From a virus: 30,209 nucleotides of DNA. Each line of letters opens with the position of its first letter. Position 1 is the first letter of the stretch. Below the pieces are notes generated by a model that had not been told where the DNA came from, ran no database searches, and was given only the letters and a program-made list of their open reading frames with translations. The stretch spans positions 1 to 30,209 of the IMG/VR virus record IMGVR_UViG_3300046816_000335; one strand, 5' to 3'. Of the stretch, positions 1,849-29,307 are shown one piece after another. The translations under genes were made by a program, and so were the position numbers.

Positions 1849-2154
1849 ATGTCAGTCAACACGGAGTTAACGGTCGCCGCTTGGCGATGCCCCTGTCACC
1901 CCGGGGCGCGGTGGAGTTTCTTTGCACCCTACGAAGGTTGCCCGATCAGCGATATGAACATCGCGTCGCAGACCTTCGGCCACAGATACGCCACTGTGGC
2001 CGAGCTACAGGCCGCACACCCGGGCGTGCGGCCCTCCGCGCTTGCCGACGACGCTGACTGGTTGACCCTGCTAGAAACGTTGATTGGCGGCCGTTCGTAT
2101 CTGACGGTCGCGGGCGAGCGGGTCCTGCCGGCGGTGGCCGATGACGCAGCCTGA
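1849..2154 (+). CDS. Hypothetical protein
   Basis: A 101-aa protein (MSVNTELTVAAWRCPCHPGA...). ATG 1849 has AAGGG seven bases upstream; an earlier in-frame ATG at 1798 lies within an inverted repeat and lacks an SD. A CPCH motif near residue 14-17 and a later Cys suggest possible metal binding. The C-terminal part is mixed helix/strand (DWLTLLETLIGG, SYLTVAGERVLPAV). The end overlaps the first glycosyltransferase by 14 bases (ATG...TGA), so it probably belongs to the same transcript. No family recognised. Confidence 0.7.
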   Translation: MSVNTELTVAAWRCPCHPGARWSFFAPYEGCPISDMNIASQTFGHRYATVAELQAAHPGVRPSALADDADWLTLLETLIGGRSYLTVAGERVLPAVADDAA

Positions 2155-3658
2155 GCCGATCGAGGTGGACGACCCGTCCACCGCTGTGGCCGTCGCCTTC
2201 GTCCACAACGGCGACGAGGTCGACTACAGCTTCTTCCACTCCTACGTGCAGCTGATCCACTTCGACGCCGCGAATGAAGGCCGGACGTGGCGCGGTGGGG
2301 AGTTCAGCATCCGCGCCGGCACCGACGGTCTGGCCGCGGCGCGGAACACGGCGGTGCAGGGCTTCCTGTCCGAGTCGAAGGCGGACTGGTTCTGCTGGTT
2401 CGACACGGACATGGGCTTCGCGCCGGAGACGGTGGACCTGCTGCTGCAGGCCGCCGACCCGGCTGAGCGTCCGGTCATGGGCGGGTTGTGCTTCGCGAAC
2501 CGCGAGGTCGAGAACGACGGCATGGGTGGTCGGATCGCCCTGGCGGCGCCGGTCATCATGGACTGGAAGACGGTCGACGGGGAGCAGGGTTTCGATACCC
2601 GCTGGAATTACGCCCAGAACGCGATCGTGCGCTGCGACGGCGTGGGTTCGGCGTGTGTGCTGATCCACCGGAGCGTGTTCGAGCGGGTCCTGGCCGAGTT
2701 CGGCCCGAACTGGTACTCCCGGGCGCGTAACCCGAGCACCAACCAGTTGATCTCCGAGGACCTGTCGTTCTGCGTGCGGGCCAACGCGCTGGACATTCCG
2801 ATCCACGTGCACACCGGCGTGAAGACGACCCACGCGAAGCGCGTGTGGCTGTCGGAGACGCACTACTGGCAGCAGCGGTTGCTGAACTCCGCTCCGTCGA
2901 CGGCGGAGGGTGCGCCGATCCCGGTGGCGGCTCCTACGTGGACGGTGCCGCGGTATGCGGTGATCCCGACCCACAACCGGCCGGCCCGGCTGCTGGCGCT
3001 GGTGGTGTCGCTGGGCGCCCAGTGCGACCACATCGTGATCGTGGACAATGCCTCGACGCCGCCGGTGGACCAGGCGCACCTGCAGGCCTCGGTGCCGGAG
3101 CACTGCAGGGTTGAAGTGATCCGCGACGAGGAGCAGCCGCCGAACCTCAGCCGCATCTGGAACGTCATGTTCGACCACTGCGCTGAGGCCGAGTTGGTCG
3201 AGGATGAGACCGCCTGCGGCGACGAGGACCACTGCGCCCAATTCAAGCCGGGCCCGGCGTGGGACGTTGCCGTCTTCAACGACGACAGCGTGGTCCCGGC
3301 CGGCTGGTACAACACCGTGGCGACGGCGCTGCGCGAGCACGACTCGGCAGTGGTGGCGCACACGGCTCCGACCTCGCCTTTGCTGCTGACCGAACTCCAC
3401 AACGACCATCGCAACCGGATGGCCCCCCATGCCTTCATCATGCGGGGCGAAGTCGATCTGCGCTCCGACGAGTCGATGCAGTGGTGGTACTTCGATACAG
3501 ATCTGGACCTTCGCGCCCGCAAGGTGGGCGGTGTGCTCTCCGTCCCGGGGCCGCAGGTGATCAACGCTCAGGCCAACTCCACGACACGGGGAGCGCTTGC
3601 GGTGCAGGCCGAGAAGGATCGCATCGCTTTCGAGGCGAAGTGGGCGGGTCAGCTATGA
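2141..3658 (+). CDS. Two-domain GT-A-type glycosyltransferase
   Basis: A 505-aa protein with two GT-A-like halves. Half 1 (about 15-255) has WFDTDMGF with the DxD at 88-90 and ISEDLSFCVRA near 204-214, the acidic motif expected for the acceptor base. Half 2 (about 271-500) opens YAVIPTHNRPARL, continues IVIVDNAST and has FNDDSVVPAGW (DD at 381-382), then WWYFDTDLDLRARK. These are family 2 glycosyltransferase signatures: transfer of a sugar from a nucleotide-sugar to an acceptor, here unknown. No signal peptide or membrane segment, so it acts in the cytosol. It overlaps both neighbours and opens the sugar cassette. Bifunctional transfer (two linkages) is an inference from the two DxD sites. 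Confidence 0.85.
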   Translation: MTQPEPIEVDDPSTAVAVAFVHNGDEVDYSFFHSYVQLIHFDAANEGRTWRGGEFSIRAGTDGLAAARNTAVQGFLSESKADWFCWFDTDMGFAPETVDLLLQAADPAERPVMGGLCFANREVENDGMGGRIALAAPVIMDWKTVDGEQGFDTRWNYAQNAIVRCDGVGSACVLIHRSVFERVLAEFGPNWYSRARNPSTNQLISEDLSFCVRANALDIPIHVHTGVKTTHAKRVWLSETHYWQQRLLNSAPSTAEGAPIPVAAPTWTVPRYAVIPTHNRPARLLALVVSLGAQCDHIVIVDNASTPPVDQAHLQASVPEHCRVEVIRDEEQPPNLSRIWNVMFDHCAEAELVEDETACGDEDHCAQFKPGPAWDVAVFNDDSVVPAGWYNTVATALREHDSAVVAHTAPTSPLLLTELHNDHRNRMAPHAFIMRGEVDLRSDESMQWWYFDTDLDLRARKVGGVLSVPGPQVINAQANSTTRGALAVQAEKDRIAFEAKWAGQL

Positions 3659-4125
3659 GCGGCCGCCCGACTGACCCCGTGGCCCGGTTCTGGCGCAAGG
3701 TCAACCAAGCCGGTCCCGCTGTGGACCCAGACCTCGGCCCATGCTGGCAGTGGCTGGGCAAGCCGCATCGAGGTGGCTATGGTCGACACTCGCCGACCCC
3801 AGGCGCGATCGTCTACGCCCATCGGTACTCGTATGTCCTGCTTATTGGTGAAGTCCCCGAGGGACTCCAGCTCGACCATCTTTGCCGCAATCGGATGTGC
3901 GTTCGCCCGGAACACCTCGAGCCCGTAACCGGGAAAGAGAACATCGCCCGAGGCGAGGCGCCTACTGCAATCCACGGGCGCAAGACGCATTGCGACGCTG
4001 GGCACCGGTTGGCCGACGACAACCTTCACGTCTACACGATCCGCTCGACAGGCACTATGGGTCGTCGTTGTCGAGCGTGCGGCGCTGCGAGGGCGCGCGA
4101 ATACAGGGCGCGGGTGGCCGCATGA
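3655..4125 (+). CDS. HNH endonuclease (HNH_3 type), free-standing
   Basis: A 156-aa HNH nuclease. The N-terminus (RFWRKVNQAG...CWQWLGKPHRGGYG) and HRYSYVLLIGEVPEG lead into LDHLCRNRMCVRPEHLE (73-89), which carries the metal-binding His, Asn and His. A C-terminal zinc knuckle follows: CDAGH (113-117) and CRAC (139-142). Such nucleases in phages are usually homing-type elements that cut a cognate allele and are copied in. It overlaps the upstream gene by ATGA and the downstream glycosyltransferase by ATGA, an unusually neat fit for an invader. It is paralogous to the HNH gene at 11112-11585, which also precedes a glycosyltransferase. Confidence 0.9.
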   Translation: MSGRPTDPVARFWRKVNQAGPAVDPDLGPCWQWLGKPHRGGYGRHSPTPGAIVYAHRYSYVLLIGEVPEGLQLDHLCRNRMCVRPEHLEPVTGKENIARGEAPTAIHGRKTHCDAGHRLADDNLHVYTIRSTGTMGRRCRACGAARAREYRARVAA

Positions 4126-4730
4126 TCGGCTACGGCGCCTGCATCGGTTCGTGGGAGAAGCTGCCCTGCAACATCCTGCCGCGGGTCAAGGACCGGCCGT
4201 TGGTCGTTCTGTCCGGTCAGTCGTCGATCGCCGCGGCCTACAACGCCATCCTCGACGCCTACAAGGGTCGGGGAATGGACGCGGTGATCCTGCTCCACGA
4301 CGACCTGGAGATCACCGACCCGGCCGCGGAGTTCAAGTTCCTCGCCGCCCTCGACGAGGACGTGGCGCTGGTCGGCGTCGCCGGCGGCGGCCCGTCACTG
4401 CGGTGGTGGGACCACAACCCGATCGGCCACCAGATGACCGACTCCGGCCCGCTCGACTTCGGTCGGCGCAGCGGTGACGTGGACATGGTCGAGGGCTCGA
4501 TCGTGGCGTTCTCGCCGTGGGCGGTGGAGAACCTGCGCATCGACGAGCGCTACACCGACTTCCGGTCCGGGTGGGATGACGTCTGCCTGCATGCCCGGGC
4601 GGCCGGCAAGCGGGTCGTGGTGGCCGATGTGGACACACACCACCACACGACGGTCGGGTGGAAGTCGCCAGAGATCGAGGCGAAGTTCGTCGAGTCGGAG
4701 CGGATGTTCCGAGAGAAGTGGGCGGCATGA
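4122..4730 (+). CDS. GT2-like glycosyltransferase
   Basis: A 202-aa protein resembling the short glycosyltransferase-like family that starts GSWEKL and has SGQSSIAAAYNAILDA (31-46). LLHDDLEI (57-64) is the metal/nucleotide-binding acidic site; GWDDVCLHARA (150-160) supplies the second acidic motif; HHHTTVGW (173-180) is the conserved C-terminal His cluster. Predicted to transfer a sugar from a nucleotide donor in the cytosol; donor and acceptor unknown. The start ATG overlaps the HNH stop and its own stop overlaps the C-methyltransferase start (ATGA in both cases), so translation is probably coupled along the cassette. Confidence 0.8.
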   Translation: MIGYGACIGSWEKLPCNILPRVKDRPLVVLSGQSSIAAAYNAILDAYKGRGMDAVILLHDDLEITDPAAEFKFLAALDEDVALVGVAGGGPSLRWWDHNPIGHQMTDSGPLDFGRRSGDVDMVEGSIVAFSPWAVENLRIDERYTDFRSGWDDVCLHARAAGKRVVVADVDTHHHTTVGWKSPEIEAKFVESERMFREKWAA

Positions 4731-5926
4731 GGCGCCTGACCTGCGGCGCCTGCGCCGGCACGAAGCTGACTGTCTTCCTCGACCTCGGCCGGACGCCGTT
4801 GGCCAACCGGTACCCGGCCACCGTCGACGAGAAGGAAGCCTGGTACCCGCTGCAACTCGGCGTGTGCGGTAACTGCGGGCTGGTCCAGCTCATGGAGATC
4901 GTGGATGACCACGAGCTCTACGGCATCGACTACGGCTTCTACTCCGGCGGCTCGATGGCCCAGCTCGAGTACCACCGCCGCGGCGCGCAGCTGCTTCTGG
5001 ACCGGTTCCCGGAGCAGGCGAAGCAGCTGACCATCGAGGTGGCCTGCAACGACGGCAGCCTGCTGCAGCACTTCGAGGCCGCCGGCTGTCGCAGTCTCGG
5101 CATCGACCCAGCGGTGGGCCCGGTCGAGCAGGCGCGCGACCGGGGGCTGGATGTTATCCAGCAGGCGCTGTCGACCGAGCTCGCCCAGAAGGTTCGCGAC
5201 GAGTACGGGCCGGCCGGGTTGGTCATCGCCTACAACTCGATGGCCCACGTCCAGGACCTCAGCGACGTGCTCGCCGGCGTGCGGGCCCTGATGGACACCG
5301 ACAGCGTGGCTGTGTTCGAGGTCCAGTACCTGCCGGATCTGTTGGCCGGCAACATGTACGACCAGGTGTATCACGAGCACCGGTTCTTCTACTCGCTGCG
5401 CAGTCTGCGTCACGCCACCGGCCTGCACGGGCTGTACGTGGTCGACGCGGAGCTGATCGAGCTGCAGGGCGGCGGCATCCGCGTCACCCTGTCCGCCGAC
5501 CCGGAGGCCATCCCTTCGCCGGCGGTGGAGCGGATCGCCGACTCGGAGTGGTGGCTGGAGCACGCCTACGCCGGCTTCCAGGGCAAGGTGGACCGCACCC
5601 GCGATCACCTGCGCAGCCTGATCCTGGCCGAGGTGGCCAGCGGCGCCAGGATCGCCGGCTACGGCGCCGCGGCGAAGGCGACGACGATCCTGAACTTCTG
5701 CGGGATCGGGCCGGAGGCGCTGCAGTACGTGGTCGACACGACGCCCTACAAGCAGGGCCGGTTCGTACCCGGTACCGGCCTGCGGATCCTGTCGCCGGAG
5801 GCGGCTGCCGAGGAGCCGGTGGACACGCTGCTTCTGCTCGCGGCGAACTACCTCGGCACGGTACTGCGACACAACCCGCACAAGGGCCGCTGGATCACGC
5901 CTCAGCCGCTGCCGGCGGTGATCTGA
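4727..5926 (+). CDS. Sugar C-methyltransferase (TylC3/NovU/TcaB9-like)
   Basis: A 399-aa, full-length SAM-dependent C-methyltransferase of the family that methylates C3 or C5 of NDP-4-keto-6-deoxysugars in antibiotic pathways. Visible hallmarks, in order: an N-terminal zinc site CxxC...CxxC (C6, C9, C47, C50); SAM motif IEVACNDGSLL (103-113), an EVACNDG variant of the usual E(I/V)GSNDG; YHEHRFFYS (215-223), the active-site His/Tyr region; GYGAAAKATTILNFCGI (311-327); and DTTPYKQGRFVPGT (337-350). ATG 4727 is chosen for the ATGA overlap. It is followed at once by an RmlB-like dehydratase, which could make its 4-keto substrate. Substrate and methylated carbon are not determined by the sequence. 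Confidence 0.9.
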   Translation: MRRLTCGACAGTKLTVFLDLGRTPLANRYPATVDEKEAWYPLQLGVCGNCGLVQLMEIVDDHELYGIDYGFYSGGSMAQLEYHRRGAQLLLDRFPEQAKQLTIEVACNDGSLLQHFEAAGCRSLGIDPAVGPVEQARDRGLDVIQQALSTELAQKVRDEYGPAGLVIAYNSMAHVQDLSDVLAGVRALMDTDSVAVFEVQYLPDLLAGNMYDQVYHEHRFFYSLRSLRHATGLHGLYVVDAELIELQGGGIRVTLSADPEAIPSPAVERIADSEWWLEHAYAGFQGKVDRTRDHLRSLILAEVASGARIAGYGAAAKATTILNFCGIGPEALQYVVDTTPYKQGRFVPGTGLRILSPEAAAEEPVDTLLLLAANYLGTVLRHNPHKGRWITPQPLPAVI

Positions 5927-6945
5927 TGCGGGTACTCCTGACCGGGGCATCAGGCTTCCTGGGCGCGAACTGCCTGCGGTACCTGCTGGACGAGACGGAC
6001 TGGGACATCGTGTGCCCGGCCAGCTTCAGCCATCGCGGCGTACCGGAGCGCATCACGCAGACCGTGCGGACGAACTGCCCGGTCGATGAGTGGCAGCGGG
6101 TCACCGTTGTGACTTGCGACCTGGCGACTCCGATCGCCGACACCACCGAGGCGCTGTTTGGCGACATCGAAGCAATCATCAACTTCGCGTCGGAGTCGCA
6201 CATCCCGCGCTCGATCGCCGACCCGGTGCCGTTCGTGCAGAACAACGTCAACTCGATGCTGCACCTGCTGGAGTATGCGTGGTGCCTGCCGCACCTGAAG
6301 GCTTTCGTGCAGATCTCCACCGACGAGGTCTACGGTCCCGCCTCCGACGGCGCGCATGCGGAGTGGTCGCCGATCCTGCCGTCCACGCCGTACAGCGCGA
6401 GCAAGGCGGCGCAGGAGGCTCTGGCGATCTCGTACTGGCGGTCCTTTGGGCTGCCGCTGGTGCTGGTGAACACGATGAACCCGGTCGGGCCGATGCAGGA
6501 CCCGGAGAAGTTCGTCCCCATGGTCATCGGCCGGGTGCTGCGCGGCGAGGTCGTGAACATCCACGCCGGCCCCGACGGGGAGATCGGGTCGCGGGTCTAC
6601 GTCAACGCCCGCGACCTGGCCGCGGCGATCCTGCACCTGCTCGGCGGTGACGTCTCGCTCTACGGCCAGCCTTATGTGGACCGGCCGGACCGGTGGAACG
6701 TGGTCGGCGAGCGTGATGTCAGCAACCTGGAGTTGGCGCAGCTGATCGCCGACGAACTCGACCTTCCGCTGCGCTATGACGTGCTCCTGTCCGACCGGCC
6801 CGGACACGGCCTGCGGTACGCCCTCGACGGCACGAAGCTGGCCGACGCCGGGTGGAAACCGACGCGGCGGATCGAGGACTCAGTCGCCGAACTGGTCGCA
6901 TGGTCCAGGGCGAACCCGCTGTGGGCGAATCGGGTGCCGCGGTGA
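5926..6945 (+). CDS. NDP-sugar 4,6-dehydratase (RmlB-like extended SDR)
   Basis: A 339-aa NAD-dependent extended short-chain dehydrogenase. The Rossmann motif is TGASGFLGAN (6-15); FASESHIPRSIADP (87-100) corresponds to the AAESHVDRS segment of dTDP-glucose 4,6-dehydratases; STDEVYG (131-137) holds the Thr-Asp-Glu dehydration site; YSASK (156-160) is the YxxxK catalytic pair; DRPGHGLRYALD and a later GWKP match the C-terminal family signatures. It would convert an NDP-hexose to the 4-keto-6-deoxy form. The usual NNYGPYQFPEKLIP segment is NPVGPMQDPEKFVP here, so the nucleotide or sugar may differ from dTDP-glucose. Starts in a TGATG overlap with the C-methyltransferase stop. Confidence 0.88.
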   Translation: MRVLLTGASGFLGANCLRYLLDETDWDIVCPASFSHRGVPERITQTVRTNCPVDEWQRVTVVTCDLATPIADTTEALFGDIEAIINFASESHIPRSIADPVPFVQNNVNSMLHLLEYAWCLPHLKAFVQISTDEVYGPASDGAHAEWSPILPSTPYSASKAAQEALAISYWRSFGLPLVLVNTMNPVGPMQDPEKFVPMVIGRVLRGEVVNIHAGPDGEIGSRVYVNARDLAAAILHLLGGDVSLYGQPYVDRPDRWNVVGERDVSNLELAQLIADELDLPLRYDVLLSDRPGHGLRYALDGTKLADAGWKPTRRIEDSVAELVAWSRANPLWANRVPR

Positions 6946-7439
6946 AACTCAACCTGGGTTGCGCCGACCGGTATGTCGAAGGCTGGCACAACGTCGACCA
7001 CGAGCCGTGCCCGCATCCCCGCGACGAGACGGTCGACCTGACCGGCCCACTGCCATGGCCCGACGGCAGCATCGAACTCGTCTACGCCGGGCATCTGCTC
7101 GAGCATCTGACCTACGAGCAATGTCGGACGCTGCTGGTCGGGTTGCGAGACCTTATGGTTCCCGGCGGCCAGTTGATGGCTATCGGTCCGGACATGGCGC
7201 TGGTGGAGTCGCTGGGTACCGGCGACAGGCATGAGGTCGACGAGTTACGCCACGGCGGCCACCGGTGGCAGGGTGACGAGCACCGGTGGGAATGCACAAC
7301 CGCCCTGATTGAGGGCCTGTTGCGCGATGCGGATTGGCTTGAGGTCACCGACGTGGGTATCGCCAACGTGGCTCTCTCGTGGCCGGTCATCGACCGGGTG
7401 CCGCAGTGGCAGTTTGCGGTGAGCGCCGTAGCGCCATGA
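6942..7439 (+). CDS. Class I SAM-dependent methyltransferase
   Basis: A 165-aa methyltransferase starting at GTG 6942, overlapping the dehydratase stop (GTGA). LNLGCADRYVEGWHNVD (3-19) is the SAM-binding motif I plus the acidic end of strand 2; PWPDGSIELVYAGHLLEHL is motif II/post-motif, typical of small methyltransferases that sit beside glycosyltransferases. It is short for the fold but all core strands seem present. Substrate unknown; a sugar O-methyltransferase is a reasonable guess from the cassette. Its stop overlaps the next glycosyltransferase start (ATGA). Confidence 0.82.
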   Translation: MKLNLGCADRYVEGWHNVDHEPCPHPRDETVDLTGPLPWPDGSIELVYAGHLLEHLTYEQCRTLLVGLRDLMVPGGQLMAIGPDMALVESLGTGDRHEVDELRHGGHRWQGDEHRWECTTALIEGLLRDADWLEVTDVGIANVALSWPVIDRVPQWQFAVSAVAP

Positions 7440-8005
7440 GCATCACGGTTGTCATCCCCACGATCGACGGACGGTACGACCAGCTGCACCGGGCCATTGC
7501 CTCGGTGCACGCGCAGACGCTGCGGGCCACCGAGATCCAGGTTGAGTTCGACCGGCTCCGCACCGGCGCCGCCGCGACCCGGAACCGGGCGCTGGAGCAC
7601 GTCGAGACCGAGTACGTCGCCTTCCTCGACGACGACGACGAGCTGAAGCCGAACCATCTGCGGGTCTGTGCCCGGTACGCGGCACTGACCGGGGCGGACG
7701 TCGTCTACCCGTGGTTCGACTGTGACGGCGAGGACCCGATCGGCATGTTCGGGGTGCCGTTCTCGGCGCGGCTCCTGCGCCAGCGCAACTACATCCCGGT
7801 CACGGTGCTGGCCCGCACCGAGCTGGTCCGGGCGGCCGGCGGGTTCCAGGAACACCCGGATGAGAACGGCGACCCGTGCGAGGACTGGGGCCTGTGGCTG
7901 GCGCTGCTCGACGCTGGCGCGAAGTTCGGCCACGTACCGCAACGGACGTGGATCTGGCACATGGGCGGCGGGACGAGAGGCAAGGGCACGACATGGCCGA
8001 AGTAG
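7436..8005 (+). CDS. Family 2 glycosyltransferase
   Basis: A 189-aa GT-A glycosyltransferase. MSITVVIPTIDGRYDQLHRA opens the fold; ATRNRALE (47-54) and FLDDDDEL (63-70) form the donor/metal site; CEDWGLWLALL (148-158) is the ED catalytic-base motif near the C-terminus. The protein is short (catalytic core only) with no membrane anchor. It closes the contiguous sugar cassette, and its end overlaps the next small gene by 13 bases. Acceptor and donor unknown. Confidence 0.85.
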   Translation: MSITVVIPTIDGRYDQLHRAIASVHAQTLRATEIQVEFDRLRTGAAATRNRALEHVETEYVAFLDDDDELKPNHLRVCARYAALTGADVVYPWFDCDGEDPIGMFGVPFSARLLRQRNYIPVTVLARTELVRAAGGFQEHPDENGDPCEDWGLWLALLDAGAKFGHVPQRTWIWHMGGGTRGKGTTWPK

Positions 8006-11057: not shown

Positions 11058-11085
11058 CCCGGCGGGCGCGTGCGGCGCCCCCGGG
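11058..11085 (+). terminator. Strong stem-loop after tail terminator gene
   Basis: CCCGG-c-GGGCGC pairs with GCGCCC-CCGGG around the loop GTGCG, 11 bp with one bulged base. It starts five bases after the stop at 11053 and precedes the HNH gene. There is no T-run, so it may be an attenuator or an mRNA-stabilising element. Confidence 0.55.
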
Positions 11086-11111
11086 GTTGGCCGACCGATC
11101 AGGGAGTCGAC

Positions 11112-11585
11112 ATGGGTAATCGTAAGGTCGGACAGGACTATGCCGTTGACGCCAGGCTCACGGAACGTTGGCGAGCCAAGGTAGACATGTCCGATCACCG
11201 CGGATGCTGGCTATGGCAGGGGTCCGTCATGCATAACAGTCGTTACGGGCAGATCCACGTCAAGCTAAGGAACGGCAGTTGGTCTGCGACGGTGGCCCAC
11301 CGGGTCGCCTATGAGATTTACCGCGGGCCGATACCTGAGGGGCTGGTCCTCGACCACCTGTGCCGCAACCGACAGTGCGTAAACCCAAGCCATCTCGAAG
11401 CGGTTGAGAACCGGACCAACATCCTGCGTGGCACCGGCTTCGCCGCACACCATGCCCGCAAGTCGCATTGTCCGCAAGGTCACGAGTACGGCACGGAGAA
11501 CACGTACCTCGACAAGGGCGGCATGCGTCACTGCCGCGCGTGCGGCCACGATCGATATCTGGCCAGGAAGGAGGCGAGAACTTGA
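11112..11585 (+). CDS. HNH endonuclease (HNH_3 type), second copy
   Basis: A 157-aa HNH nuclease related to the 3655-4125 protein: GCWLWQG, VAHRVAYEIYRGPIPEGL, then LDHLCRNRQCVNPSHLE (80-96) with the catalytic/metal residues, and a C-terminal knuckle SHCPQGHEY ... HCRACGHDRY. ATG 11112 has AGGGAG five bases upstream. Codon use here is less GC-rich at third positions than in flanking tail genes, suggesting a newer arrival. Its end overlaps the glycosyltransferase start (TTGA). Probably a homing-type element that separates neck genes from the tail tube gene. Confidence 0.9.
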   Translation: MGNRKVGQDYAVDARLTERWRAKVDMSDHRGCWLWQGSVMHNSRYGQIHVKLRNGSWSATVAHRVAYEIYRGPIPEGLVLDHLCRNRQCVNPSHLEAVENRTNILRGTGFAAHHARKSHCPQGHEYGTENTYLDKGGMRHCRACGHDRYLARKEART

Positions 11586-25966: not shown

Positions 25967-26254
25967 GTGGTTGGATCAAGTGGTCTAGCTGGGAGTGCGA
26001 CCATCATGGCCGAACCTTTCTACCGGCGTGTCCTCGCCGATATCCGCGCCCGCATCGCCTCAGGGCAGTGGCCGCCGGGTCACAAGCTGCCCACGAACGC
26101 CGCCCTGCGCGACTTCTACCGCGTCCTGCTGGACAACCCCCAACTCGCCAACGACACGGTGCAGAAGGCCGTGACGATTCTCAAGGAGTCCGGCGAGCTC
26201 CGCGGCCAGCAGGGCAAGGCCGTCTACGTGGCCGGCCACACAGAGGTCGGCTGA
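25967..26254 (+). CDS. GntR-type winged-helix regulator, DNA-binding domain only
   Basis: A 95-aa protein with the GntR winged helix: FYRRVLADIRARIASGQWPP, GHKLPTNAALRDFY, NDTVQKAVTILKESGELRGQ and GKAVYVAG (wing). Full-length GntR regulators carry a C-terminal ligand domain; here only the DNA-binding part is present, so effector control is unlikely or occurs through partners. GTG 25967 follows GGTGAGGAGG; ATG 26006 is a weaker alternative. GTGTAAC occurs upstream of it (25920-25926) and again before the next gene (26292-26298), suggesting it controls both. Confidence 0.82.
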   Translation: MVGSSGLAGSATIMAEPFYRRVLADIRARIASGQWPPGHKLPTNAALRDFYRVLLDNPQLANDTVQKAVTILKESGELRGQQGKAVYVAGHTEVG

Positions 26255-26845: not shown

Positions 26846-26864
26846 GTGCGTCATACGTGCGTCA
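26846..26864. repeat. Candidate integrase arm site, left
   Basis: GTGCGTCA-TAC-GTGCGTCA: two identical 8-mers with an 11-bp period (about one helical turn). A matching pair lies on the other side of the tRNA core at 27064-27082. This is the expected layout of arm-type sites for a tyrosine integrase. Confidence 0.65.
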
Positions 26865-26881
26865 GGACTGGCCCAGACCCT

Positions 26882-26905
26882 GCCACGTCCAGCCACGTCC
26901 AGCCA
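26882..26905. repeat. 10-bp tandem repeat left of att core
   Basis: GCCACGTCCA occurs twice head to tail (26882-26891, 26892-26901), followed by GCCA. The 10-bp period on one face of the helix suits binding of Xis or host factors in attP. Confidence 0.5.
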
Positions 26906-26960
26906 GAGAAACCGCAGGCCAGCTGCGGTGGCGGGTCGCTGACCTGCACCTCTTCCCACC

Positions 26961-27005
26961 TTGACACGGAAGAGGTCACTGGTTCAAACCCAGTATCGCC
27001 CACCA
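26961..27005 (+). other. attP core: 3' half of tRNA-Val(GAC)
   Basis: The 45 bases from TTGACAC to the terminal CCA read as a tRNA 3' half: anticodon loop TTGACAC with anticodon GAC (Val), stem GGAAG, variable AGGTC, T-arm ACTGG-TTCAAAC-CCAGT, acceptor strand ATCGCCC, and ACCA. No D-arm or 5' half lies to the left, so this is not a functional tRNA gene here. Phages that integrate into tRNA genes carry exactly such a piece so that the gene is restored after insertion. CCTCTTCC (26949-26956) pairs with GGAAGAGG (26968-26975), forming an alternative stem over the core edge. Confidence 0.85.
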
Positions 27006-27015
27006 GAGTTTGACG

Positions 27016-27053
27016 AGGTCATCGGCTTAAGTCAGCCGGTGGCCTTCTTCTTT
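27016..27053 (+). terminator. Phage-borne terminator after the tRNA 3' half
   Basis: AGGTCATCGGCT (27016-27027) pairs along 12 positions (including G-U pairs) with AGCCGGTGGCCT (27034-27045), loop TAAGTC, followed by TCTTCTTT. It lies ten bases after the CCA and reads in the tRNA direction, so after integration it could terminate the rebuilt tRNA transcript. It also spans the integrase stop codon. Confidence 0.75.
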
Positions 27054-28174
27054 GTCCGGCCGCGTGCGTCATCCGTGCGTCGCCAGCTTTCGAGCACCTT
27101 GTCATGCGCGTCCGGCGCCAAGTGTGCGTACCGGGTCGTCGTGGAATAGCTCTCATGGCCGAGCAGGGCCTGCACCCGGTACAGGTCCACGCCGTCCTGG
27201 ACCAGCCAGCTGGCCGCGGTGTGCCGCATCGCCCGCGGCGGCAGCCGGCGCACCCCGGCCGCCTCGATGGCCGGGTACCAGACCCGCAGCCGGAAGTCGG
27301 AGTCGTCGACCAGGCCGCCGCGCGGTGCGGTGAACAGGGCTGCGGACAGCGGCCGGCCGGTCATCAGGGCGGACAGGCGCGGCATCTGCCACGGCGGTAC
27401 CGGCACCGACCGGAAGCTCTTGCGGCTCTTCGGGTACTCGCGCAGCCCGGCCCTGGTAAGCACACGGGTCACCTCGACCTGCTCGCGCAGCCACGCCACC
27501 CGGTCGCCGTGCAGGCCGAAGATCTCACCGGGTCGCAGCCCGACCCACATGCCCAGCCCGACCAGGGCGGCCCACTGCGGTTGCTCGTGCCGGTCCAGCT
27601 CAGCCAGCAGCTGCTCCGCCTCGTCGTGGGTGTAGAAGTCGATCGGCGACGGCGGGACGGTGGGCAGGTCCAGGTCGGCGAATGGGTTGGACAGCACGAT
27701 GGGCGGTCGCTCGCGGCACGCGGCGTCGAACAGGGCGCTCATGACGTTGACGATCTGGTGCACGGTGTCGGCGGCGAGCACCGGCGACTCAGCGGTGCCG
27801 GCGACGCCCTTGTCCCGGGCGCGGCGCTTCTTGCGCACCACGTTGGCCCAGCCCTGGGCCTCCATCCGGGTCACGGTCTCCATCGGCCACCGGCCCCACT
27901 GGGCCTCGCAGTGGGTGCGCCAGTTCGATGCCACCTTCGCCGATGTGTTCGGGTCGACGGCCCGCGCCCTGGACCACCGCTCGTACCACTCGGCCACAGT
28001 GATCCGGCCAGAGCGTGGGTCGCGCAGGTCGCCGCGGGAGAAGTTGGCTTCGAGCTCGCGCGCCCACTCGGCCGCCTCGCGCTTAAGGGCGAACGTCTTC
28101 GAGATCCGGTCCCCGTTCGGGTGGCGCACTGTTGCCTGTTGCCTGCCCGAGGGCAGCTTGCGGATGTAGGGCAT
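27032..28174 (-). CDS. int: Tyrosine integrase
   Basis: A 380-aa tyrosine recombinase. N-terminal arm-binding part (MPYIRKLPSGRQQATVRHPN, a beta-type AP2-like start), core-binding helices (about 60-150), catalytic domain from about 180. Active-site residues: R214 in GLRPGEIFG, K249 or K252 in PKSRKSFRS, R317 in RAMRHTAAS, H340 in LLGHES, and nucleophile Y349 in TTRYAHL. The usual box II His of HxxR is Arg (R314). It should recombine attP with a tRNA-Val attB. The start ATG overlaps the repressor stop (TGATG), so the two are translated from one leftward message. Its 3' end contains one of the candidate arm sites. Confidence 0.95.
   Translation of the reverse strand: MPYIRKLPSGRQQATVRHPNGDRISKTFALKREAAEWARELEANFSRGDLRDPRSGRITVAEWYERWSRARAVDPNTSAKVASNWRTHCEAQWGRWPMETVTRMEAQGWANVVRKKRRARDKGVAGTAESPVLAADTVHQIVNVMSALFDAACRERPPIVLSNPFADLDLPTVPPSPIDFYTHDEAEQLLAELDRHEQPQWAALVGLGMWVGLRPGEIFGLHGDRVAWLREQVEVTRVLTRAGLREYPKSRKSFRSVPVPPWQMPRLSALMTGRPLSAALFTAPRGGLVDDSDFRLRVWYPAIEAAGVRRLPPRAMRHTAASWLVQDGVDLYRVQALLGHESYSTTTRYAHLAPDAHDKVLESWRRTDDARGRTKKKATG
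27064..27082. repeat. Candidate integrase arm site, right
   Basis: GTGCGTCA-TCC-GTGCGTCG repeats the left site (26846-26864) with the same 11-bp period and orientation; three of 19 positions differ or fewer by eye. It lies inside the integrase coding end, so the sequence serves both roles if functional. Confidence 0.6.
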
Positions 28175-28584
28175 CAGCCGGTCTTCCTTCGGCGGGGGGG
28201 CTGTGGCTGCGGCGACATGGCCGCGAGCATCCGCATGGTGGTGCGGATGTACTCCCTGGTCGCCTCGTTGGTGTGCGGGTCTTCGAGTTTGCGCAGCAGG
28301 GCCAGCACGTCCGGGTCGACGATCGGCTCCGGCGGTGCCGTGGTCCGCTCGGCCGCTCCCAGTGCGGCGAGCGCCTCTCTGGCCGGGATGCCGAGGCCGG
28401 CGCAGAACTGCTTCACCTTGTCCACCGTGGGCGCGGTCTGGCCGTTGCGCCACCGGTAGTAGGTGGTGGCGTTGATTCCGGTCGCCTTGACGATCTGTGC
28501 GTCGGTCATTCCACGGGCGCGCGCGTCATCGAGTGCACGGGCGATGAACCGCGCGAACCGGATCTTGTCAGCGGCCGATGGCAT
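28174..28584 (-). CDS. Immunity repressor (Cro/CI-type HTH)
   Basis: A 136-aa protein. Residues about 8-75 form an XRE-like HTH: ARFIARALDDARARGMTDAQ, then IVKATGINATTYYRWRNGQT (recognition helix), then DKVKQFCAGLGIPAREAL. The C-terminal part is helical (DPDVLALLRKLEDPHTNE, TREYIRTTMRMLAAM) with a basic end PPRRRKTG, with no LexA-like peptidase domain. ATG 28584 has no SD, but TATGTT (minus strand, forward 28591-28596) ends six bases before it: probably leaderless. Divergent from the excisionase-like gene and coupled to the integrase, the standard place for a phage repressor. Confidence 0.82.
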   Translation of the reverse strand: MPSAADKIRFARFIARALDDARARGMTDAQIVKATGINATTYYRWRNGQTAPTVDKVKQFCAGLGIPAREALAALGAAERTTAPPEPIVDPDVLALLRKLEDPHTNEATREYIRTTMRMLAAMSPQPQPPRRRKTG

Positions 28585-28804
28585 GGGCGCAACATATCCG
28601 CTGCCAGGAGGCCGGTTGTCTGCCGGCGCGGTCTTCGTGCCTCCGCGCAAGCGGTTGAGACCCGACTGTCGGAGCATCCTCCGTTCGGCTATCGAAAGTG
28701 CACCACGTTGTTTCATGCATTCATGGTGGGGAAAGTTCGGCCTCCGGAGAATCAGCCGAACGGATGAGGCACCTGCATGGAAGCAACAGGGTACGGTCAC
28801 CTGC
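28585..28804. promoter_or_regulatory. Divergent lysis/lysogeny control region
   Basis: This 220-base gap separates the leftward repressor from rightward early genes. CCGTTCGGCT (28681-28690) and AGCCGAACGG (28754-28763) are exact inverted copies; a third GTTCGGC is at 28735-28741, forming a local stem with GCCGAAC. CACCTGCATG occurs at 28770-28779 and 28798-28807. Likely repressor operators and the early promoter lie here; TACGGT (28792-28797) is a -10 candidate for the 28805 gene. Confidence 0.62.
28591..28596 (-). promoter_or_regulatory. -10 box of leaderless repressor gene
   Basis: TATGTT on the minus strand, six bases before the ATG, fits a -10 hexamer with transcription starting at the start codon. 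The same spacing is seen with TATGCT before the HTH gene at 24733. The -35 is weak. Confidence 0.55.
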
Positions 28805-29041
28805 ATGCGTGCAAGTGACGAAGCGCCCTACGGCGCCGATGCAGTAGACCGAGATCGAATCGCCTACACCCTCGAAGACACAGCGCGGCTGCTGTCCATC
28901 AGCATCCGCAAGGTCAAGTACATGGTGGACTCGGGCGAGCTTCCATCGATCAAGGTCGGCCGCGCTCGTCGAGTGCATGGAACTGCGATCGAGGACTACG
29001 CCCGCCGGCAGGCGACGCCCGGCGCCCGGGAAGCGTCATGA
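28805..29041 (+). CDS. Excisionase-like HTH protein 1
   Basis: A 78-aa protein whose core YTLEDTARLLSISIRKVKYM then VDSGELPSIKVGRARRV is the MerR/Xis-type winged HTH (HTH_17), here about residues 20-58. Such proteins act as phage excisionases or early regulators. No SD is evident; TACGGT lies seven bases before ATG 28805, so a leaderless start is possible. First gene of the rightward early operon; the next gene is a second protein of the same fold. Confidence 0.78.
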   Translation: MRASDEAPYGADAVDRDRIAYTLEDTARLLSISIRKVKYMVDSGELPSIKVGRARRVHGTAIEDYARRQATPGAREAS

Positions 29042-29307
29042 CTTCCCCGCCGCCGCAGCCGCCGCGCCCCGCTGCGCCGCCCTCGCCACCGCGCCCCAGC
29101 GGCCCGCCGAGGGTCGCAGAGGAGATGTATCCGGTCGCCGAGTTGGCCGAGATGTGGCGCTGTTCGGTCGACCACATCTACGACCTCATCGCCCGCCGCG
29201 AGATCCGCACCGTCCAGCTCGGCATCGGCCGCGCCAAGACGAGGATCCCCGCCTCGGCCGCCGACGAGTTCGTGGCCAAGCGCACCACGAAGGGTAGAGC
29301 CGCATGA
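29038..29307 (+). CDS. Excisionase-like HTH protein 2
   Basis: An 89-aa protein with a Pro-rich N-terminal leader (PPPQPPRPAAPPSPPRPSG) and a MerR/Xis-type HTH: YPVAELAEMWRCSVDHIYDL then IARREIRTVQLGIGRAKTRI (about 31-70). It overlaps the previous gene by ATGA. One of the two HTH proteins is probably Xis and the other a control protein; the sequence does not say which. Confidence 0.75.
   Translation: MTSPPPQPPRPAAPPSPPRPSGPPRVAEEMYPVAELAEMWRCSVDHIYDLIARREIRTVQLGIGRAKTRIPASAADEFVAKRTTKGRAA

Follow-up and report, generated by a model that had tools for sequence, protein, structure and literature searches.

The locus examined here, from a soil phage, carries half of a tRNA gene beside an integrase gene, and the question is whether it is the attachment site of a free phage (attP) or a place where such a phage has already joined a chromosome. 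In the window, by which we mean the whole 30,209-base stretch of viral DNA analysed, positions 26846-27082 are, with a probability of about 95%, the attP of a temperate actinobacteriophage. This reading, proposed in the first-pass annotation, is well supported by sequence comparison, which revealed a tRNA core, an adjacent integrase gene and arm-type repeats flanking the core, a layout shared by five related viral contigs. The features of the region are as follows.

25967-26254, + strand: GntR-like winged-helix gene, left of attP, its place conserved in the five relatives.
26846-26864, + strand: left arm-type pair (P1, P2), GTGCGTCA TAC GTGCGTCA, as a whole GTGCGTCATACGTGCGTCA; 11-bp period, position kept to within 2 bp in the five relatives.
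26885-26911, + strand: candidate excisionase-binding repeats between the left arms and the core, read from the sequence as two copies of CCACGTCCAG plus CCAG with a 10-bp period.
26916-26947, + strand: imperfect inverted repeat, GCAGGCCAGC ... GCTGACCTGC, immediately left of the core.
26959-27005, + strand: common core, 47 bases equal to the 3' half of tRNA-Val(GAC), CCA included.
26961-26967, + strand: predicted 7-bp overlap (crossover) region TTGACAC, equal to the anticodon loop, halfway between the arm pairs (109 bp to either side).
27015-27046, + strand: terminator-like hairpin (fold z -4.7 here, between -4.6 and -6.1 in the five relatives).
27032-28174, - strand: gene for a tyrosine integrase of about 380 aa (Pfam PF00589, E 2.5e-18; PHROG integrase, E 2.4e-54).
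27064-27082, + strand: right arm-type pair, GTGCGTCA TCC GTGCGTCG, as a whole GTGCGTCATCCGTGCGTCG; 11-bp period, kept in the relatives.
28174-28806, - strand: HTH repressor-like gene (PHROG transcriptional repressor, E 4e-9; HTH_3), upstream of the integrase gene and overlapping it.
28463-29041, + strand: HTH_17 protein, an excisionase candidate, conserved only in the C-terminal part of the ORF.
29038-29307, + strand: HTH_17 protein, a second excisionase candidate (PHROG excisionase/regulator, E 2.7e-5; Pfam HTH_17).

All 45 bases of 26961-27005 are identical to the 3' half of tRNA-Val(GAC) genes in many actinobacterial genomes, as had been claimed from the sequence at first reading, and the CC at 26959-26960 likewise agrees with the host genes, which extends the shared core to at least 47 bp. 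The search of host genomes for the identical 45 bases that had been suggested at that stage returned at least 119 bacterial genome stretches, mostly tRNA-Val(GAC) and mainly from Nocardioides, Micromonosporaceae and Intrasporangiaceae; wherever ARAGORN called a tRNA on these host copies, it was tRNA-Val with the anticodon gac. The core is thus identical to the host attB, as in the attP of a lambda-type tyrosine integrase. Across the 30,209 bases of the window, ARAGORN and Rfam found no tRNA, which agrees with the earlier statement that the 5' half is missing. When a host 5' half was joined to the window core, tRNA-Val(gac) was called at attL and no tRNA at attR, so upon integration the tRNA is completed by the phage core. 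Among the host core copies with sufficient upstream sequence (n = 123), the tRNA 5' half was present in 106 and absent in 17. The 17 copies look like displaced halves at the far ends of other integrated elements, and tRNA-Val(GAC) therefore appears to be targeted often.

The arm-type repeats stand on both sides of this core. The left pair begins 4 bp past the stop codon of the upstream gene, and the right pair is contained in the final codons of the integrase gene (ORF end 27032), which ends inside attP. The sequence GTGCGTCA is found in three of the four units and GTGCGTCG in the other (consensus GTGCGTC(A/G)), and all are direct repeats in one orientation. Measured from the middle of the anticodon loop, the centre of each pair lies exactly 109 bp away in the window, and 109-112 bp away in the relatives, and the predicted crossover was therefore placed in the loop. 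In this way, the paired repeats with an 11-bp period described earlier were found again at 26846-26864 and 27064-27082, and the word symmetrical, which had been used for them, applies to their distance from the loop (109 bp on each side) but not to their orientation. Since the window contains two occurrences of the paired motif where 0.02 would be expected, since none of 150 shuffled 450-bp stretches held a comparable repeat, and since both sequence and position are kept in five contigs, the arm pairs are not attributable to chance.

A tyrosine recombinase gene adjoins the core, as at lambda-type sites, and its start codon overlaps the stop of the upstream repressor-like gene (TGATG). Of the catalytic set (R-K-HxxR-H/W-Y), R, K, the second R, GH and Y are present, and the histidine of HxxR is replaced by R (PPRAMRHT). 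The window and all of its close relatives share RxxR in place of HxxR at box II, while more distant relatives have H or Y. A predicted structure of the integrase was too poor (pLDDT 43) and was discarded. The true start of the neighbouring repressor-like gene is probably inside ORF 28174-28806. Elsewhere in the window, three HNH/endonuclease VII-type genes (51-626, 3259-4125 and 11070-11585) are located within or next to the head-tail gene cluster, as are glycosyltransferase and epimerase genes (2141-8005).

Five viral contigs (L121 and L126-L129) encode integrases 64-80% identical to that of the window, and all five contain the core, which is exact in L121 and L127 but in L126, L128 and L129 lacks the final A and so stops at CC. 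As in the window, arms are present on both sides: on the left, the TGCGTC pairs occupy -116 to -114 / -105 to -103, and on the right, +104 to +107 / +115 to +118; the arms are kept and the DNA between arms and core has mostly diverged. Also conserved around attP are the GntR-like gene on the left and the integrase and HTH genes on the right, and therefore the site has phage DNA to its left and right, as previously claimed for the window from its own genes. In L121, a contig of 43.9 kb, attP is about 17 kb from one end.

More distant relatives were found integrated in chromosomes. In four genomes from the Nocardioidaceae search (L160-L163), distant relatives of the integrase stand beside an intact tRNA-Val(GAC) with the identical core; the integrases found at tRNA-Val are 33-42% identical to that of the window over the aligned parts. 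A second, half-tRNA copy of the core is 50.9 kb away in G599, 51.7 kb away in G654 and on a separate contig in G560. The junction on the integrase side (attL) has right arms only and the far junction (attR) left arms only, so the arms are split between attL and attR, as expected for a lambda-type attP. The left pair in G560 is at -114/-103, the positions seen in the window. The arm spellings of the integrated relatives differ (GTGAGGAC, GTGCGCC and GTGCGGT), again in pairs with an 11-bp period.

The split of the arms bears directly on the alternatives. Because the window has both arm pairs and integrated junctions have one each, the site is attP or a tandem-prophage joint of identical sequence, and the earlier view that it is no prophage junction is supported. 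A tRNA half with an integrase gene is what attL or attR regions can also contain. However, attL would hold the tRNA 5' half, which the window has not, and attR would be devoid of the right arms and the integrase, so that either junction is hardly conceivable here. If two copies of the phage lay in tandem in a chromosome, the joint between these prophages would be identical in sequence to attP. The window is the whole of its record, which is linear, lacks end repeats, shares no 14-mers between its 300-bp ends and looks like a fragment; the earlier description as a free or circular phage genome is thus not borne out, and the record would also fit a chromosomal origin. Furthermore, stacking of elements is suggested by G654, where near 2242317 of C1 (L172) the displaced copy of the core is followed by another arm-like pair with 11-bp spacing (GTGCAACATAC GTGCAACAAGG), which suggests, by its sequence, a second element at the same tRNA. 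Against such a joint, no host gene or intact tRNA-Val, either of which had been named beforehand as speaking against attP, was recognised in the 30 kb, and in all five viral relatives attP is likewise internal and flanked by phage genes to the left and right. We therefore consider tandem prophages improbable, though less so than attL or attR.

The repeats themselves might also be the operator of another protein or chance repeats of GC-rich sequence. The right pair lies within coding sequence, so its conservation could be partly driven by the protein, but the left pair is conserved although it lies outside coding sequence in the window. Additionally, the pairs of the integrated relatives are spelled differently with the same 11-bp period, and a search with the arm pattern only, described below, picks integration sites beside integrases where scrambled motifs do not. 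This explanation is very unlikely, and attP with arm-type repeats remains the preferred reading.

By analogy with lambda-type systems, the N-terminal domain of the integrase would grip the GTGCGTC pairs and its catalytic domain the core, so that the enzyme would bridge arms and core, with strand exchange predicted within the 7-bp anticodon loop TTGACAC. The host copy of the loop is flanked by CTTCC/GGAAG. In mycobacteriophage cores, crossover usually takes place in the anticodon loop (PMC10865867). Upon insertion, the phage core would complete the split tRNA-Val gene at attL, which would then have the phage hairpin at 27015-27046 as its terminator. Of the two HTH_17 proteins, one is probably the excisionase, a candidate to act on the repeats at 26885-26911; at the matching place, L126 and L129 have tandem-like repeats with other letters. 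The inverted repeat left of the core is also found in relatives, with the strongest folds in L127-L129 (z -4 to -6) and weak ones in the window (z -2.3) and L126 (z -1.1).

To assign a host, the 3' flanks were compared, and the top five matches were all from Micromonosporaceae (Virgisporangium L018, z 7.2; Phytohabitans; Micromonospora), a sequence-based hint that this family may provide the host. AGGTCAG-type hairpins were also weighed as a possible genome-wide host element; in the host loci, CAGGTCAG was about 4-fold above permuted 8-mers. A close prophage was sought in 351 Micromonosporaceae, 299 Nocardioidaceae and 395 genomes of the class, and no integrase more than 60% identical was found. 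The best chromosomal integrase (L156, in G846) is 60% identical and located at tRNA-Pro, which a 56% identical integrase (L187) also uses. Since tRNA-Pro is used by the closer integrases and tRNA-Val by the more distant ones, target does not track overall integrase similarity; and since the integrases at tRNA-Val are so distant, the target of the window phage is inferred from the core. The same tRNA-Val core is present with differing arm repeats (GATCATGA-like and GACTAGT-like) in L123, L124 and L125, a pattern consistent with the convergence of other integrases on this target. Among annotated phages, blastn of the region obtained nothing beyond short tRNA-like matches, and the integrase reached about 31% identity at best.

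The arrangement matches the plan of cluster J mycobacteriophages closely and resembles that of cluster K1. In cluster J (Omega, BAKA), a 44-bp core is about 100 bp from the end of int and its left end is in the anticodon loop (PMC3706429). As here, a tyrosine integrase has attP on its 3' side with direct-repeat arm pairs on both sides; the cluster J phages use tRNA-Leu and arms TGCATAC(g/t), whereas the present site has tRNA-Val, TGCGTC(A/G) and right arms inside int. The likeness to Omega is one of published attP layout. In cluster K1 (CrimD; PMC3203893), two pairs of 11-bp arm repeats likewise flank the core and a stem-loop terminator lies between the core and the right arms, but the core is tmRNA, the right arms are inverted and attP is 5' of int. 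The Nocardioidaceae tRNA-Val(GAC) prophages share the identical core, a related integrase in the same orientation and 11-bp arm pairs, and differ in integrase identity and arm spelling as given above. Phages with tRNA-dependent lysogeny have a short core of about 10 bp, by which the tRNA is destroyed, and they encode a tRNA themselves (PMC10865867); this type was ruled out, because the 47-bp core is long enough to rebuild the tRNA, and the window holds no phage tRNA.

The site therefore follows a well-known plan, and the wider surprise is the same short arm motif at the sites of unrelated phages. Viral contigs were searched with a pattern blind to the core (TGCGTC N5 TGCGTC N(186-216) TGCGTC N5 TGCGTC), which matched 18 contigs. 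Two of these (L175 and L177) are low-complexity repeats, and the remaining ones look, by sequence, like integration sites. By eye, tRNA halves were seen in L176 (Ile(GAT)), L185 (Thr-like), L187 (Pro-like) and L181 (Cys-like), and a gene end in L189. A Pfam integrase that barely resembles that of the window, or not at all, is encoded by the adjoining gene in L181, L182 and L183; in L186 this gene is an ORF that is integrase-like by eye without a Pfam or PHROG match, and in L179 no integrase was detected near the arm pattern. The variant TGCATC matched 10 contigs, several of them near-copies of each other, most with a recognisable tRNA-like core, and all seven neighbouring ORFs tested were Pfam integrases. 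As controls, reversed TGCGTC matched 7 contigs with no integration site among them, while reversed TGCATC, scrambled TCGTGC and a 13-bp period matched none. Altogether, TGC(G/A)TC pairs with an 11-bp period surround other cores, many of them tRNA halves, beside diverse integrases in L174, L176, L179, L181-L183, L185-L189 and L196-L205.

These pairs, about 190-215 bp apart, may be a shared arm-binding code of very divergent tyrosine integrases with different cores, a proposal to which we give even odds. As few motifs were tested, the idea is a lead that falls short of proving a general code, and our literature search for a TGCGTCA or TGCGTC integrase arm code found no relevant paper. If true, attP sites could be located by their arms alone, with no prior knowledge of the integrase or the target. 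A compact int-attP cassette could be built for Nocardioides, Micromonosporaceae and Intrasporangiaceae, which share tRNA-Val(GAC) as a ready integration target. The recovery of different tRNA cores and divergent integrases by a search with arms only makes a testable proposition, namely that arm recognition may be conserved while core targets change.
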